From an uncultured Granulosicoccaceae bacterium (GTDB lineage Bacteria; Pseudomonadota; Gammaproteobacteria; Granulosicoccales; Granulosicoccaceae), in assembly GCA_937930305.1 (NCBI GenBank), contig CALGLE010000009.1:124001-188000 (forward strand): DNA of 64,000 bases, in the 5' to 3' direction. Shown piece after piece: positions 18,587 through 34,517 of this stretch (the stretch's first letter is position 1; the number at the start of each line of letters is the position of its first letter). A program made the translations under genes and the position numbers. The notes under the pieces are model-generated. The model made no database searches and was not told the origin of the DNA. It saw nothing but the letters and a program-made list of their open reading frames with translations.

Positions 18587-19882
18587 TTAGTTGATGGGCG
18601 GTGGATTTGGCACCAACTCAATCAAACCCATCCGGGAGGGGTCTTGCCAAGTTAAATCACTTGAAAATTCGGCAGGCTGTGCAGATGGTGCGCGCCAGCC
18701 AAATTTAAATTCTCGATTCTGGCCATCAATATCGTTGTTGATTTGTACGTCGAATCCAAATGACTGGCCTATGGGTATTTGCAATTTTGTTAAATCAAGG
18801 CGAATTTCATAGGTGTCTTGGCTCGGGCATATACACATCGCGAACTCCACCCCATCCAACCCAACAATGGGCACAGAATTGATACCCGTTTCCGCCCGAC
18901 CATCGGGGTCGAGAGATCCGTCTTCTAATCTGGACCGATTACGCGTTCCCAAACCTAGTTTCATTAACGGCAGGGTCAGGTGATAGTCGTCTACACCATC
19001 GTAGGTGGACCCTTGGCTGCGATTTCCATCCCAAAAAATGTCAATCGCATCATCGTGCCAAGGTAAAGTCGAGTCTCCCTGCGAGGTTCGATTCTCGACA
19101 CTTTCACCCAATACAAACAAGTACAGAAACTGGCTGTCGTGTAAAGCGCCCCAACGAAATTCGGTACTACCTTCGGGACGATCCGGATCAAAGCCCAGCA
19201 TGCGGTTATCGATTTGCAAATTATTGCCGTCTCGATCTTGATATTGCGCTTCACCCCAAACCAAATCGTAACTGCCGTCAATAACCGGCGCTCTGGCCGG
19301 ATCAATGCCAGCGATAAAAGCATCGGCGCGGAACAGACCGGGGTCAGTTGATAATAAGGGGTCTGAGTTTTCCAAGCGTTCAGCTAAGTTCGGAACATTG
19401 TCATTGTCGTCATCTAATCTAGGGTATCTTTCCAAGTCCCCGTCGTTGTCACCCACGGCATAGTCATCGTCAAACAAAATCACAGCGGTATCACGAGAGA
19501 CTTCTGGATAGGTCATGTCAGCGATTGCCAGTAACAATTCACGACTGCGAAAAAACTCAATCCATTCCACCCGCAAAACCACATCTTCGCCTTGTGGAAC
19601 TTGCGCAAAGCCTTGGTAAATAAAACCGTTAGCTTGTGGCGTTAGATTTAAGGTCGCACCATTCAGTGTCACCCGAGGATTCACTTGCGCCTGATTTAAT
19701 GCTCGCTCACGAAGAAATTCGGGCGCCGCTATTTCCCACATGGCCGTGTCTTGCGAAGTGGGTTGAAAAATGGATTGCTGCTCTCGGTCTGAGCAAGCCG
19801 ATAACATCAACGCGAAAACCCCAGCAAGCCATGGCATCCCGTAAAATTTCGACCCACCAATCAATTCTTTCATTATGTGCAT
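18587..19882 (-). CDS. CBM9-like carbohydrate-binding lipoprotein with Ca-binding TSP3-like repeat
   Basis: 431-aa lipoprotein, lipobox LSAC with Cys30 from the start at 19882. An Asp-rich stretch (DNDGDLERYPRLDDDNDNVP) resembles thrombospondin type 3 / calcium-binding repeats. The C-terminal about 230 residues resemble carbohydrate-binding family 9 / DOMON-type beta sandwiches: VIDGSYDLVWGEA, WHDDAIDIFWDGN, STYDGVDDYHL, FGFDVQINNDIDG and FGWRAP. It shares this plan and many residues with the lipoprotein at 33063-34517. It lies between an exported Ig-like protein and a GPH symporter on the same strand, so a surface glycan-binding role is plausible but not shown. Confidence 0.85.
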   Translation of the reverse strand: MHIMKELIGGSKFYGMPWLAGVFALMLSACSDREQQSIFQPTSQDTAMWEIAAPEFLRERALNQAQVNPRVTLNGATLNLTPQANGFIYQGFAQVPQGEDVVLRVEWIEFFRSRELLLAIADMTYPEVSRDTAVILFDDDYAVGDNDGDLERYPRLDDDNDNVPNLAERLENSDPLLSTDPGLFRADAFIAGIDPARAPVIDGSYDLVWGEAQYQDRDGNNLQIDNRMLGFDPDRPEGSTEFRWGALHDSQFLYLFVLGESVENRTSQGDSTLPWHDDAIDIFWDGNRSQGSTYDGVDDYHLTLPLMKLGLGTRNRSRLEDGSLDPDGRAETGINSVPIVGLDGVEFAMCICPSQDTYEIRLDLTKLQIPIGQSFGFDVQINNDIDGQNREFKFGWRAPSAQPAEFSSDLTWQDPSRMGLIELVPNPPPIN

Positions 19883-19886
19883 GGTG

Positions 19887-20516
19887 TCATTGTCGCCCAG
19901 GCTGATTGATGGTGACGGTAAAATCGCACAATCCATCTTCACAATTGCTTGGTCCTGGGTTCGATCCTGGCCCAGATGAGCGACCAGAGTTCGCTAAAGC
20001 GCCAACGAGTGCGCCCAACACCAGAGCACCTGCTACGAAATACAGCGGCTTACGTTCAACAGTTTTAGTGGCTGCTTCTGCGATGGAAGGTTCGACCTCG
20101 ACTTGCGGTACTTCGATAAAGCGGATGAGCGGGCTGAAATTGTACCCACGCAAGGTGCGATTGCCGCTGACATCCCGCGCTTCAATGTAGTACTCAATGG
20201 ATCGAGAGTCTTCTAAGCCGGTGGGAATTTGCACCGTGAACGTGGATGAATACGACACGCGATCCATATCAATACTGGTGTAGCTGGTTTCACCCTCGAA
20301 CCGATATAAGAACCGCACACTGGCCAGTTCGTCATCGTCTGCCACGGTGGCTAGAAAGCTTTGCCGCTCTGCAGCGATTTCCGATTCGACCACCTCGTGC
20401 TCGATGATCGGGGGCTCCACATCCAACGATTGTGCAACGGCATCCACCACCGTGACAAACTGCGCAAGACAGAACCAGGTTAAACATGCCAGCCTGATCA
20501 ATAGATTGTTCGTCAA
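19887..20516 (-). CDS. Exported protein with Ig-like domain and C-terminal membrane anchor
   Basis: Family not recognised. From a TTG start at 20516 (GAGGA 7 bases upstream) the protein of 209 aa begins with a clean signal peptide (TNNLLIRLACLTWFCLAQF..., cut after AVA). A beta-rich domain follows with PPIIEHEVV, DDELASVRFLYRFEGE and SIEYYIEARDVSGN, typical of Ig-like or fibronectin-like folds. After that come a Pro/Glu linker, a hydrophobic helix (YFVAGALVLGALVGAL) and a short tail with two Cys. An ATG at 20564 in the same frame lacks a ribosome site and would bury the signal peptide. It ends 5 bases before the CBM9-like lipoprotein, so the two are very likely co-translated. Confidence 0.72.
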   Translation of the reverse strand: MTNNLLIRLACLTWFCLAQFVTVVDAVAQSLDVEPPIIEHEVVESEIAAERQSFLATVADDDELASVRFLYRFEGETSYTSIDMDRVSYSSTFTVQIPTGLEDSRSIEYYIEARDVSGNRTLRGYNFSPLIRFIEVPQVEVEPSIAEAATKTVERKPLYFVAGALVLGALVGALANSGRSSGPGSNPGPSNCEDGLCDFTVTINQPGRQ

Positions 20517-20753
20517 ACGCGATTCCTCGTCCACTGTTCGCCCACGGGTCAAAACGGATTCCATCCGAATTCATCAAGCCTACATAGAAAACGTTACACT
20601 GTGGAAAAACCGTTAAAAAACAACGCGGTAATAATAACAAATGCTATTTGAACTCACCACAGTGAACATCGATATTGCGTGTTACCACAAGGTAGCCGCA
20701 ACACTGTTGCATAATCGACCCCCTAACCACGATTGCTTGCGCGTAACGTTTCC

Positions 20754-21365
20754 ATGAATAAATACAGACGCTACCTACCCATTGTCGCCGTCCTGCTGGC
20801 CGCACTTGGACTGAATTTAGACCGATTTGGGATCGATTTAGATGCCCTCAGCCGCGGCCAATCGCCCTTCTCCTCCCAAGGTACAGCAAATTCGTCGGGG
20901 AACTCAAACTCATCGAATGGTCAGTCTGCAAGTACCGGGAAGTCTAGCAGTCACTCGAGTGGGCAGAAGTGGTCTGATACATCCCCAAACATTAATTTAT
21001 GGCATGTCTTCGAAGGTGAAATAAATCGCAGCGGCAGTCCAACCGGCTACCACTCCCGACCCGGCGGCCAAGATGCACCCAACGCTCGAATCGTGCGCAT
21101 TCAGGACAGGCCTAATCGACAGGGTGTTTATACGGCTACTATCGAAGTGCGTGACGGCAATCAATGGAAATCGAAGTTCTCCACTTTCTTCCCAGATTCA
21201 TTATCACGGGACGAGGTAATCGACATAATTTTGCACGCCTATAAAAACAGTAAGAATAAAAACGAAGCGCCTTGGGAAGGCCCATCCGGGGCCGGATACC
21301 AGATCCGGGGTTACACCTCGGGGAAAGGCGGCATTAACACCGCCTTTCCCGTTTACGTCAAATAA
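20754..21365 (+). CDS. Exported EndoU-like (bacterial EndoU) nuclease
   Basis: 203-aa protein. An N-terminal hydrophobic helix (YLPIVAVLLAALGLNL) is an uncleaved anchor or signal. It is followed by a Ser/Asn/Gly-rich low-complexity linker (about 35-75) and a C-terminal domain resembling the bacterial EndoU family: NLWHVFEGEIN with His84, TGYHSRPGG with His100, YTATIEV, WKSKFSTFFPDSLS with Lys139/Lys141, and a C-terminal GGINTAFPVY. The two His and a Lys match the expected catalytic set of EndoU ribonucleases, which often occur as polymorphic or contact-dependent toxins. No immunity gene is seen beside it. The start at 20754 is preferred over an in-frame TTG at 20733. Confidence 0.72.
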   Translation: MNKYRRYLPIVAVLLAALGLNLDRFGIDLDALSRGQSPFSSQGTANSSGNSNSSNGQSASTGKSSSHSSGQKWSDTSPNINLWHVFEGEINRSGSPTGYHSRPGGQDAPNARIVRIQDRPNRQGVYTATIEVRDGNQWKSKFSTFFPDSLSRDEVIDIILHAYKNSKNKNEAPWEGPSGAGYQIRGYTSGKGGINTAFPVYVK

Positions 21366-21371
21366 CCGCAG

Positions 21372-23549
21372 TTAGGCGTTGCCCGAATCCACCCTTGTTT
21401 CGGTGGATGGGGCATGCTTGGCTTGTCGACGCTCACGCACTTCTAGCGTAACGCGTACGCAGCTAAGCGCTGCGAGTAAGGCCAATAGAAACCAACCCAG
21501 TGAGCCACCACCGTTACTGGTTGAGTGACGCGGTGCGTTAAACATCGGTTGCTGCGTATCTTGGCGCGTGGGTTGAATGGCTTGTTGAGCGCGAACTTCC
21601 CGAGCCATTCGTTCGCGTTCCACGCGAGTGGCGTTGTTACGCGCAATGCCGGTGGATTCAAACACGTCGTCGCGCAGCACTAAGAGAGAGGTGTAATCGG
21701 TGACGATACCGGCGTCAAGCGCGATGTCAGTAATTTGATTCTGCGAGTCCTCGCTCTCCCCAACCAAGTCCTGCACCGCTTTTAGCGCCTCGATAGTTGA
21801 GTAAGCCCATAAGCGTTCGAGCTCTGGATGGGCGGTGTCTTCCGGTGGAAACGCAGCCTTGGCTTGATAGGTTTTTTTCTCTCCAGACACTTTTGCCTTT
21901 AACGTCACTTGGGCAAGGCCTGAACCAGAATACTTTCCCAGTACGTTTAACTGCTCACCACGATATACGCGAGAGAATTCATGGGGGCTTAACTCGGAAA
22001 CCGCTACACCATCTATTCGAATCGATACATCATGTAACGCCTCATGCGTAGCTTTACTCAGCATTTGCAACATCAGTCCATTCACATCATCCACCGTCGA
22101 TACATTCATCGCAAAGCCTGATGTGTGGTGAGTTATAGCCGACAGCAAAGGTTTATTCGCACTGTTGCCCATCACCGCAGTGAATACACGCAAGTCCACT
22201 TTATTCAGTAATTCAAGAAAGCTTTTCGCTTCGGTTGTACCAACATTCGCCACCCCATCAGTCACTAATAAAATGGAGGTGGTTCGATCACGATCGATTA
22301 AGCGCAAGCCTTTTTCCAAGCCTTTATATAAATCGGTGCCACCGCCGGTTCCATGCTGTTTAAGTTTTCTTACGGTGTCGCTAACGTTGTTGGCCGTCGC
22401 CTGCTCAAAGCGATTCGTCATCATGCGAGTCGAATTAGAAAACGTCACCACCGCGTATCGATCATTGGCATTTAACGCGGCAAGAGATTGCTCAACGCCA
22501 GCCACCAAGGTCGCGTAATCACCCGCCATTGATCCGGATGAGTCTAATACAAAAATCCAATCACGCCCTTCTGTGATGGGTGCTAAATCGATGCCCGGTG
22601 TTAAGGTCAACATAAAGGTGCCATCGGCAGCGCCGGCTTCCTTGTAGGTCACTAAATCCATCGCTCCCGGCAGATTTTCAGCTAATCGCCAATACACAAT
22701 CAGGTCTTTATTTAATTGAAATGCCGCTTGATTATTTACGTTGGTAGAACGCCCTGGGCTTTGCTCATAAGTTAAGGTGTCATTGCCATTGGCTGCGGTC
22801 TCTAGAGCCTCTCTCTGGGCAAGATCGGTATCACTTAAATTCTGTCCCATCTGCGCACCATGACCTGCAACCGATGCAATGCTGACTTGCCATTCACCAC
22901 TATCGAGCTGCTGAACGGACGCCTGCCCGTAAGGCACACGAATGGCATCAACCGGATAAGCCGAACGCAAGTGCAACCGAAACGAAAATTTGGCTTGCAC
23001 CGACTCATTGCGTGTCCAAAAAGATTCTGTGTTCGCATCCAGCTCTGCTTCCTCTAAGGGATAGGCATATCGACCCATGCCATGATCTATTGATGCCTCT
23101 TGCAAATACACCAGACGAACCTTCACTGATTCATTTGCACGAACCGGTGACACTCGCATATCGAAGTGCTTGTATTCCTCCTTTTCCACTAATGCGCTTT
23201 CTCGCCCGTTAGACACTTCCTTAGCGTATCGATCCCGCGCCTCTTGCTTTTTAAACACCTCGGCATGAACCGGTTGCTCATCTATCCAGTAAGTGAATTC
23301 ACCCACCGACGCTCGGTGTGGTACGGGAAAGCGATACAAGGCCTCCAAATCACGCGCGTGTGGATTTGAAAACACTTGGGTGACTTCGGTAACGGTGAAT
23401 CCGTTCTGTATGACAACTTCTACTTGTTGCTCGGTTAACTCCAACTCCGCGCCGCCGTTGACGGGCGACATAAGCCCTGCAGCTAGGCCGACTTTTGCTC
23501 CCACCAACAGTGCGGTTGAAACCACTAACTTCAAAAATAAGTGCCTCAT
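21372..23549 (-). CDS. VIT and von Willebrand factor A domain membrane protein
   Basis: 725-aa exported protein: signal peptide (1-23), VIT domain (about 28-155), VWA domain with the metal site DSSGSM (336-341) plus a downstream TDG, and a C-terminal membrane helix (about 683-700, LGWFLLALLAALSCV) followed by basic residues. The plan resembles the marine proteobacterial 'sortase target' VIT/VWA proteins, but no LPxTG-like motif and no sortase gene are seen here, so the C-terminus is probably a plain membrane anchor. AAGGAA precedes the start. Divergent from a TetR regulator; the shared 205-base gap carries three operator-like repeats. Confidence 0.88.
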   Translation of the reverse strand: MRHLFLKLVVSTALLVGAKVGLAAGLMSPVNGGAELELTEQQVEVVIQNGFTVTEVTQVFSNPHARDLEALYRFPVPHRASVGEFTYWIDEQPVHAEVFKKQEARDRYAKEVSNGRESALVEKEEYKHFDMRVSPVRANESVKVRLVYLQEASIDHGMGRYAYPLEEAELDANTESFWTRNESVQAKFSFRLHLRSAYPVDAIRVPYGQASVQQLDSGEWQVSIASVAGHGAQMGQNLSDTDLAQREALETAANGNDTLTYEQSPGRSTNVNNQAAFQLNKDLIVYWRLAENLPGAMDLVTYKEAGAADGTFMLTLTPGIDLAPITEGRDWIFVLDSSGSMAGDYATLVAGVEQSLAALNANDRYAVVTFSNSTRMMTNRFEQATANNVSDTVRKLKQHGTGGGTDLYKGLEKGLRLIDRDRTTSILLVTDGVANVGTTEAKSFLELLNKVDLRVFTAVMGNSANKPLLSAITHHTSGFAMNVSTVDDVNGLMLQMLSKATHEALHDVSIRIDGVAVSELSPHEFSRVYRGEQLNVLGKYSGSGLAQVTLKAKVSGEKKTYQAKAAFPPEDTAHPELERLWAYSTIEALKAVQDLVGESEDSQNQITDIALDAGIVTDYTSLLVLRDDVFESTGIARNNATRVERERMAREVRAQQAIQPTRQDTQQPMFNAPRHSTSNGGGSLGWFLLALLAALSCVRVTLEVRERRQAKHAPSTETRVDSGNA

Positions 23550-24910: not shown

Positions 24911-24940
24911 GGGCGAAGCCGTCGCTTCGCCCTTTATTTT
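24911..24940 (+). terminator. Rho-independent terminator after the methyltransferase gene
   Basis: A perfect 9-base stem (GGGCGAAGC / GCTTCGCCC) with a 4-base loop at 24911-24932, followed by TTTATTTT. Ends the TetR-methyltransferase unit. Confidence 0.88.
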
Positions 24941-25163: not shown

Positions 25164-26159
25164 ATGATGTCGATATCCTCCGAGGAGCTAAACCACCATC
25201 GCCGCATGGACGAGCGCTTAGCGCCTGTCATGTTCGGCTTGGCCATCGCGTTTCTCATTCTCCTTGCTGCGTTGATCGTCGCCATGGTGGACATGCCACG
25301 CGTGGTCGAGCTAAGCCTGTTGGAGTCAGAAGATCAAACGCTAAGCGAACACGTGCGCGCCAGATTGGTCAGCGCCGAGCGACTTGGCGGGCATCTACTC
25401 ACCCTGTTGTTATTGCTTTGGCCATTGTTTATTGCAGAGTCCTTATACCAACTCACACAGGCAAAAGCGGCAAACGCCACCAAAAAACAATGGGGATTAA
25501 GAGTGGCCGCAGCGGCAATTCCTCCCATACGCTTGGGCACCCCATCCATGGCTTGGGACGGTCGAGTCTGGCTACCAGTCATGAGCTGGGTTCACCCCAG
25601 CAAAGCATCCAAACAAATGTTAGCCCGTTTTTTTGGCAAACCTATGATTGCCATCGCGCTGCTGATACTGCCCATTTTATTGTTAGAGTTCGGATTTAAA
25701 TCCTTAGTGGCCAATCATTTCTGGTTACAAATGCTCATTCATTTGGCCACGGGTTTTATATGGTTTGCCTTCACGGTTGAATTTATCTTAATGGTGAGCG
25801 TCAGTGATAAAAAGCTGGCTTACGTTAAGAAAAACTGGATTGACCTAGCCATCATTCTATTGCCGTTAATCTCTTTCTTAAGAGGTATACGCGCGCTTCG
25901 CTTGGCTAAATTAGCCAAGGTGCAACAACTGGCCAAAATGGGCCGGGTCTATCGCATGCGAGGCTTAGGTATGAAGTTGTTTCGTGCCTTGCTTTTATTT
26001 GAGGTGGTGAACCGAGTACTGCGCATCACACCAGAAAAACAACTCGACAAGCTTAAAAGTATTCGCCAAGACCACATTGAAGAATTGGAAGAGATTGATC
26101 TCGAGATTGCTAATTTAGAACAAGTAATACAAGACAAAAGCGCTCAGCTTAAGGAATAA
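25164..26159 (+). CDS. Pore-less voltage-sensor-domain membrane protein with C-terminal coiled coil
   Basis: 331-aa protein. Two N-terminal hydrophobic helices (about 20-42, 74-95) precede a four-helix block that looks like a voltage sensor domain. S1 is about 160-180, S2 about 186-212 with the charge-transfer pattern F203-x-x-E206, and S3 about 222-239 with N224-x-x-D227. S4 has basic residues every third position: R240, R243, R246, K249, K252, then K258 and R261. No pore helix or TVGYGD-like filter follows. Instead there is a charged heptad-rich tail (about 291-331, KQLDKLKSIRQDHIEELEEI) predicted to form a coiled coil. This plan recalls Hv1 proton channels. Function not established; could also be a gating or regulatory subunit. 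The start is not firmly fixed (ATG at 25164 or 25167). Confidence 0.75.
   Translation: MMSISSEELNHHRRMDERLAPVMFGLAIAFLILLAALIVAMVDMPRVVELSLLESEDQTLSEHVRARLVSAERLGGHLLTLLLLLWPLFIAESLYQLTQAKAANATKKQWGLRVAAAAIPPIRLGTPSMAWDGRVWLPVMSWVHPSKASKQMLARFFGKPMIAIALLILPILLLEFGFKSLVANHFWLQMLIHLATGFIWFAFTVEFILMVSVSDKKLAYVKKNWIDLAIILLPLISFLRGIRALRLAKLAKVQQLAKMGRVYRMRGLGMKLFRALLLFEVVNRVLRITPEKQLDKLKSIRQDHIEELEEIDLEIANLEQVIQDKSAQLKE

Positions 26160-33062: not shown

Positions 33063-34517
<1,455 letters not shown>

Follow-up and report, generated by a model that had tools for sequence, protein, structure and literature searches.

A bacterial protein family with tandem voltage-sensor homology, no recognisable pore and a candidate non-channel output

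Two-pore and four-repeat channels (TPC, Nav and Cav) carry more than one voltage-sensor domain (VSD) per chain, each with its own pore. Here we consider a gene at positions 25164 to 26159 of a 64,000-nucleotide stretch of DNA, hereafter the window, from an uncultured Granulosicoccaceae bacterium (contig CALGLE010000009.1, positions 124,001 to 188,000 of the forward strand), the product of which has VSD homology and no recognisable pore. According to the consulted sections of a 2023 review (PMC10377628), a database search found all known prokaryotic VSDs to be accompanied by a pore, and nothing points to Hv channels in prokaryotes; the same sections place the origin of Hv channels in an early eukaryote, where S1-S4 was split off from a channel gene. 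The pore-less VSD family described here, with members in at least three phyla (Pseudomonadota, Planctomycetota and Bacteroidota), contradicts the statement in those sections that prokaryotic sensors all carry a pore; pore-less sensors are thus not confined to eukaryotes. No report of a pore-less or voltage-sensor-only bacterial family was found among the literature matches listed, preprints and most subscription journals being outside the coverage.

Judged by its sequence, the window protein combines VSD homology, the lack of a recognisable pore, a tandem duplication and a conserved charge-transfer centre, whereas a voltage response, dimerisation, S4 movement and an output are what we infer. 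Its features, all on the + strand and given in window positions, are:

25164..26159, +, gene for the pore-less tandem voltage-sensor protein, 331 amino acids plus stop (open reading frame calling, 104-member family)
25224..25298, +, S1' (TM1, residues 21-45), first helix of the putative degenerate N-terminal sensor (hydropathy, profile alignment to S1)
25383..25454, +, S2' (TM2, residues 74-97), with W86-x-x-F89-x-x-E92 (E/D92 in 104/104 members)
25482..25532, +, putative S3' remnant, residues 107-123, ending P120-P121-x-R123, with no S4' after it (profile alignment to S3, conservation)
25563..25589, +, linker motif W136-x-P138-x-x-x-W142, residues 134-142, predicted cytosolic (conservation, charge balance)
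25638..25706, +, S1, residues 159-181, with P160, P170 and acidic E175 (position 175 is E in 81 and D in 19 of 104 members)
25722..25802, +, S2, residues 187-213, with the charge-transfer-centre motif W200-x-x-F203-x-x-E206 (profile search, family alignment)
25833..25874, +, S3, residues 224-237, with N224-x-x-D227 and P234 (family conservation, alignment to Kv3.1)
25875..25961, +, S4 and extension, residues 238-266, basic at 240, 243, 246, 249, 252, 258, 261 and 264 (residue reading, shuffle test)
26034..26153, +, C-terminal coiled-coil-like helix, residues 291-330 (AlphaFold helix, heptad pattern)

Voltage-sensor homology without a pore

The open reading frame at 25164-26159 (+, 331 amino acids) matches that of a preliminary description of this DNA, which had recognised a voltage sensor in it. 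F203, E206, N224, D227, R240, R243, R246, K249 and K252 are all found at the numbers given there, and the identification is upheld by profile searches and the family alignment: the C-terminal half is a VSD by homology. Its S1-S3 region aligns with VSD chains, and a bacterial Ion_trans VSD profile is matched with a probability of 99.4. The window protein itself is not listed for Pfam Ion_trans, the match being made by relatives only (L001 scores 25.7 bits against a cut-off of 25, and 19 of 43 members match at E<=0.1).

A family of 104 distinct members was recovered at >150 bits; a further match, L187, was left out as it is mostly masked. F203 is present in 104/104 members, E206 in 103/104 with a gap in the remaining one, and position 227 is D in 96 and E in 7, again with a single gap. 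The preservation of these S2 and S3 residues is more than chance, because it extends across a family in which 20 of 103 members are <30% identical to the window protein over the aligned columns. Mean-field direct coupling analysis of the 104 sequences (effective number 74) yielded no usable coevolution signal, gap columns dominating the result.

In S4, the every-third series R240, R243, R246, K249, K252, Q255, K258, R261, R264 is basic at eight of nine steps, with a longest unbroken run of five, so that the basic ladder of the preliminary description is confirmed and found to be longer than was counted there. When residues 238-266 were shuffled, as many basic residues in one phase occurred with p 0.0002, and a chance ladder was rejected on this basis. 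All nine steps are basic in eight relatives, all among the ten same-genus relatives listed. Beyond S4, the segment R261-x-Y-R264-x-R266 is conserved and R284 is present in 97/104 members.

The absence of a pore, also noted in the preliminary description, holds throughout the family. Three of the 104 members are truncated before the tail, and among the 101 readable tails (37-119 residues long) none contains the S5-selectivity filter-S6 arrangement of voltage-gated cation channels, nor a filter motif or further hydrophobic segment after S4. The coiled-coil-like character claimed for the tail is likewise supported: a heptad pattern, at a threshold chosen within the analysis, occurs in 100/101 tails as against 36% of 505 shuffles, and the full-length AlphaFold model, in which the preceding helix continues to about residue 285, has a 40-residue helix at 291-330.

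The weaker matches read include 40 distinct proteins that fit the pore pattern and are channels matched via their VSD; since the family profile was used to find them and the pore pattern to choose them, their high match is partly due to selection. In a FastTree phylogeny of 143 VSDs, all 103/103 family sequences lie on one side of a branch with support of only 0.446, and for that reason no sister group is claimed.

A probable degenerate second sensor and a conserved linker

The preliminary description had also noted two extra helices and a 60-residue loop at the N-terminus. Both are present, but profile-profile alignment recasts them as a degenerate second VSD plus the W-x-P-x-x-x-W segment. 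In a profile search the N-terminal helices aligned to S1-S2 from a NaChBac chimera (E 0.023), and the duplication was tested post hoc, after this match had appeared. The N-terminal hairpin scores 27 against the protein's own S1-S2, compared with 13.7 for the best of 60 column-shuffled controls and 10.7 when reversed; PM falls on PM, and W86-x-x-F89-x-x-E92 on W200-x-x-F203-x-x-E206. When the alignment is carried on through the loop into S3, it covers 83 columns and scores 41.5 (best of 60 controls 18.7), while the N-terminal half scores 32.8 against the VSDs of pore-bearing channels, with 18.3 in controls. Position 89 is F in 71 members and Y in 13.

The local alignment reaches P120-P121, or R123 when the channels are the reference, which is the point at which S4' would begin; the WxPxxxW segment follows instead. 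The linker alone gave no significant profile match to S3-S4; W136 and P138 are found in 104/104 members and W142 in 101/104. Hence the N-terminal half probably derives from a duplicated VSD (S1'-S2' and an S3' remnant) that lost its S4', and the charge balance argues against S3' as a membrane-spanning segment. The tandem unit would also illustrate duplication of a sensor and stripping of its S4.

Proposed mechanism and alternative readings

We propose, tentatively and at close to even confidence, that a C-terminal S1-S4 sensor and an S4-less N-terminal unit, together devoid of a pore, form a coiled-coil dimer through which S4 motion reaches a conserved module in the cytosol. A change in membrane potential would slide the basic S4 ladder past the F203/E206/D227 charge-transfer centre, a movement argued from the retention of that centre beside a basic S4, while the N-terminal unit probably acts as a fixed packing partner. 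A dimer is probable because S4 runs on into the R-x-Y-R-x-R segment and a short coiled coil; the helix leading from S4 through R261-x-Y-R264-x-R266 and R284 into the coiled coil could plausibly serve as the output lever. WxPxxxW, the most conserved cytosolic element, is a likely docking face, and S4 motion could be relayed to the cytosolic surface formed by this linker and the post-S4 basic helix, there to be read by a partner or by lipid.

Support from S4 across the family is mixed. In the alignment columns, S4 is less conserved (R240 in 70/104, R243 in 81/104 and R246 in 57/104 members), these columns being poorly aligned for a long-loop subgroup. S4 is readable over residues 238-261 in 102 members; 95 of these have at least three basic residues in one i+3 phase, yet an unbroken run of at least three occurs in only 56/102, the other 46 having a run of two or one. 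A run of three is reached in 84/104 members when counting extends to residue 266, a figure that overstates the support for S4 as it reaches into the post-S4 segment. Conservation among homologues, suggested as a check in the preliminary description, is therefore favourable for E206 and D227 and mixed for the S4 basic residues. The recount weakens the proposed mechanism, and with it the broader reading of a bacterial non-channel voltage-responsive class, and strengthens the view of the protein as a former VSD retained as a membrane scaffold, with an immobile S4 and with the conserved cytosolic linker and coiled coil doing the work. In line with this view, the linker and post-S4 residues are better conserved than S4, S4 charge is reduced in many members, and paralogues in one planctomycete-class genome (L189, described below) keep the linker motif and not the sensor. 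We nonetheless regard a scaffold as unlikely: residues past which no S4 charge moved would hardly be expected to persist as E206 and D/E227 do, in all but the gapped sequences, and the S4 ladder is nearly complete in the window protein and complete in its eight relatives.

The predicted structure of S3-S4 is, at face value, unfavourable, albeit at low confidence. Both AlphaFold models draw residues 225-285 as one continuous helix, with a predicted local distance difference test score of about 46-61 beyond residue 240 and with alignments of 9 sequences behind them. Were this region a single amphipathic or membrane helix, the protein would not be a working S1-S4 sensor. Given the low model confidence and the shallow alignments, the homology to channels with the same short S3-S4 turn, the charge balance and the S3-S4 inserts, we consider this very unlikely, although the S3-S4 hairpin is itself putative.

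A pore-less VSD followed by a coiled-coil-like tail could also conduct protons, or cations, through the VSD itself, as an Hv1-like leak channel, perhaps acting on membrane potential or pH as a safety valve. An acidic S1 residue at position 175 in 100/104 members is compatible with such a channel, and Q (16 members) or G (12) at S4 position 246 might leave a hydrated gap. However, E/D175 falls near Hv1 E119 and not on the selectivity residue (human D112) in one weak global alignment, and an S4 charged at nearly every step, as in the window protein, would tend to obstruct the conduction pathway whatever position S4 takes. The family has I/V/L/M at position 168 and P170 in 104/104 members. Ion conduction by the window protein is hence possible and not favoured, and a leak channel appears decidedly improbable. 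The Hv1 S4 signature RxWRxxR occurs in 0/104 members, and the direct profile match to human Hv1 was not significant, so that the Hv1 membership raised in the preliminary description is not sustained and Hv1 identity was rejected. In the consulted sections of PMC10377628, the totally conserved Hv1 S4 Trp is said not to be found in prokaryotic S1-S4 segments. The protein would belong with VSDs as a variant, and not with Hv1.

An accessory VSD subunit assembling with a separate pore protein is scarcely credible. VSDs normally drive pores, and a divergent pore protein could be missed, just as the Ion_trans search misses the window protein. Yet at E<=0.001 neither Ion_trans nor Ion_trans_2 matched anything in the window genome (94.7% complete), whereas of 14 control genomes 8 and 11, respectively, were positive in these searches, making a homologous pore partner unlikely; furthermore, no neighbour family recurs in >6 of 29 loci. 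An accessory pore subunit was rejected for lack of an Ion_trans or Ion_trans_2 match in the protein's own genome.

If the proposed S4 movement is real, bacteria would possess a direct, non-channel sensor of membrane potential, and bacterial electrical signalling would become testable in a compact single-gene system. We suggest more guardedly still that bacteria may have their own non-channel voltage-responsive class, combining a tandem VSD, a coiled coil and a cytosolic reader, in which membrane potential controls a non-conducting output.

Distribution, locus and known systems

The gene is patchily distributed, with a single strong copy per genome (E 1e-50 or better), and is commonest in planctomycetes among the groups sampled. 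Strong matches were found in 13 of 57 genomes of the relatives' set (any match in 14), with 11 of 27 in the same genus; in 71 of 248 genomes of the class of the planctomycete L003 (any match in 76); in 27 of 392 of its phylum (any match in 42), mostly overlapping the class set; in 13 of 241 of the order of L005 (any match in 26); in 2 of 296 of the phylum of L005 (any match in 16); and in 3 of 398 of a Pseudomonadota sample (any match in 47). Genomes G016 and G010 share the genus of the window genome, and their matches equal L001 (a Granulosicoccus metagenome-assembled genome) and L002 in length and score. A pattern scan of named genomes gave eight relatives, comprising two Granulosicoccaceae, two planctomycetes (Mariniblastus and Pirellulaceae) and four of Cytophagales type. 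The viral contigs searched contain no relative, and the plasmids searched gave one weak match only, to a Deinococcus ion transporter.

In the planctomycete-class genome G125, locus L189 has two head-to-head paralogues (on both strands, open reading frames of 334 and 273 amino acids) beside the strong-matching copy; they keep the N-terminal helices, the linker motif (WLPRMGW and WWPLRNW) and a heptad-like tail, and have lost most S3-S4 sensor residues. The intermediate relatives L130 and L131 (frames of 283 and 313 amino acids, 105 and 94 bits) have a shortened S4, and their open frames lack the N-terminal sensor unit, beginning close to the linker.

At its locus the gene appears to be solitary, its 3' end overlapping a GNAT gene that converges on it, and with a terminator-like hairpin upstream:

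24911..24932, +, terminator-like hairpin between the PEMT/ICMT-like gene and the voltage-sensor gene (consensus scan, pattern match only)

Across the 29 loci compared, neighbour positions are constant only within a clade (3-4 loci), and none is constant across clades. Elsewhere in the window lie a probable EndoU-type nuclease with a hydrophobic N-terminus (20733-21365, +; Pfam EndoU_bacteria E 5e-24), a protein with a VIT plus a von Willebrand A domain (21372-23549, -), and two CBM9-type domain proteins (18587-19942 and 33063-34517, -) that also form one group in neighbour clustering.

Bacterial six-transmembrane, Kv-like channels (Ion_trans; L022, L061, L076) share with the family the S1 PMxxL...E pattern, a WxxFxxE-like S2, a short S3-S4 turn and an i+3 basic S4; they have S5-pore-S6, whereas the family lacks a pore and has the additional S1'-S3'. 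Seven such transporters (L022, L061, L065, L068, L069, L071 and L076), among the channels nearest the family in the VSD tree, have an unusual GS(D/E/Q)-(F/Y)-(W/F)-P at the expected selectivity filter position. TPC, Nav and Cav resemble the window protein in having several VSDs in one chain, although neither of its units carries a pore. Ci-VSP is comparable in that its VSD is coupled to a non-pore output, as proposed for the bacterial family, but no phosphatase domain was found for the window protein, nor for 43 members among the Pfam families listed (25/34), and the tails are 37-119 residues; identity as a voltage-sensing phosphatase was rejected for want of that domain. Human TMEM266, in the consulted sections of PMC13095418, is a pore-less VSD with a coiled coil and no known conductance, conserved in vertebrates and nearer to sodium-channel VSDs; the bacterial family has the same combination of pore-less VSD and coiled coil, together with a tandem unit that those sections do not mention for TMEM266. 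Hv1 and VSOP differ from the family in its tandem N-terminal sensor unit and bacterial hosts, and share with it a pore-less VSD followed by a C-terminal coiled coil, with F-x-x-E in S2 and an Asp in S3.
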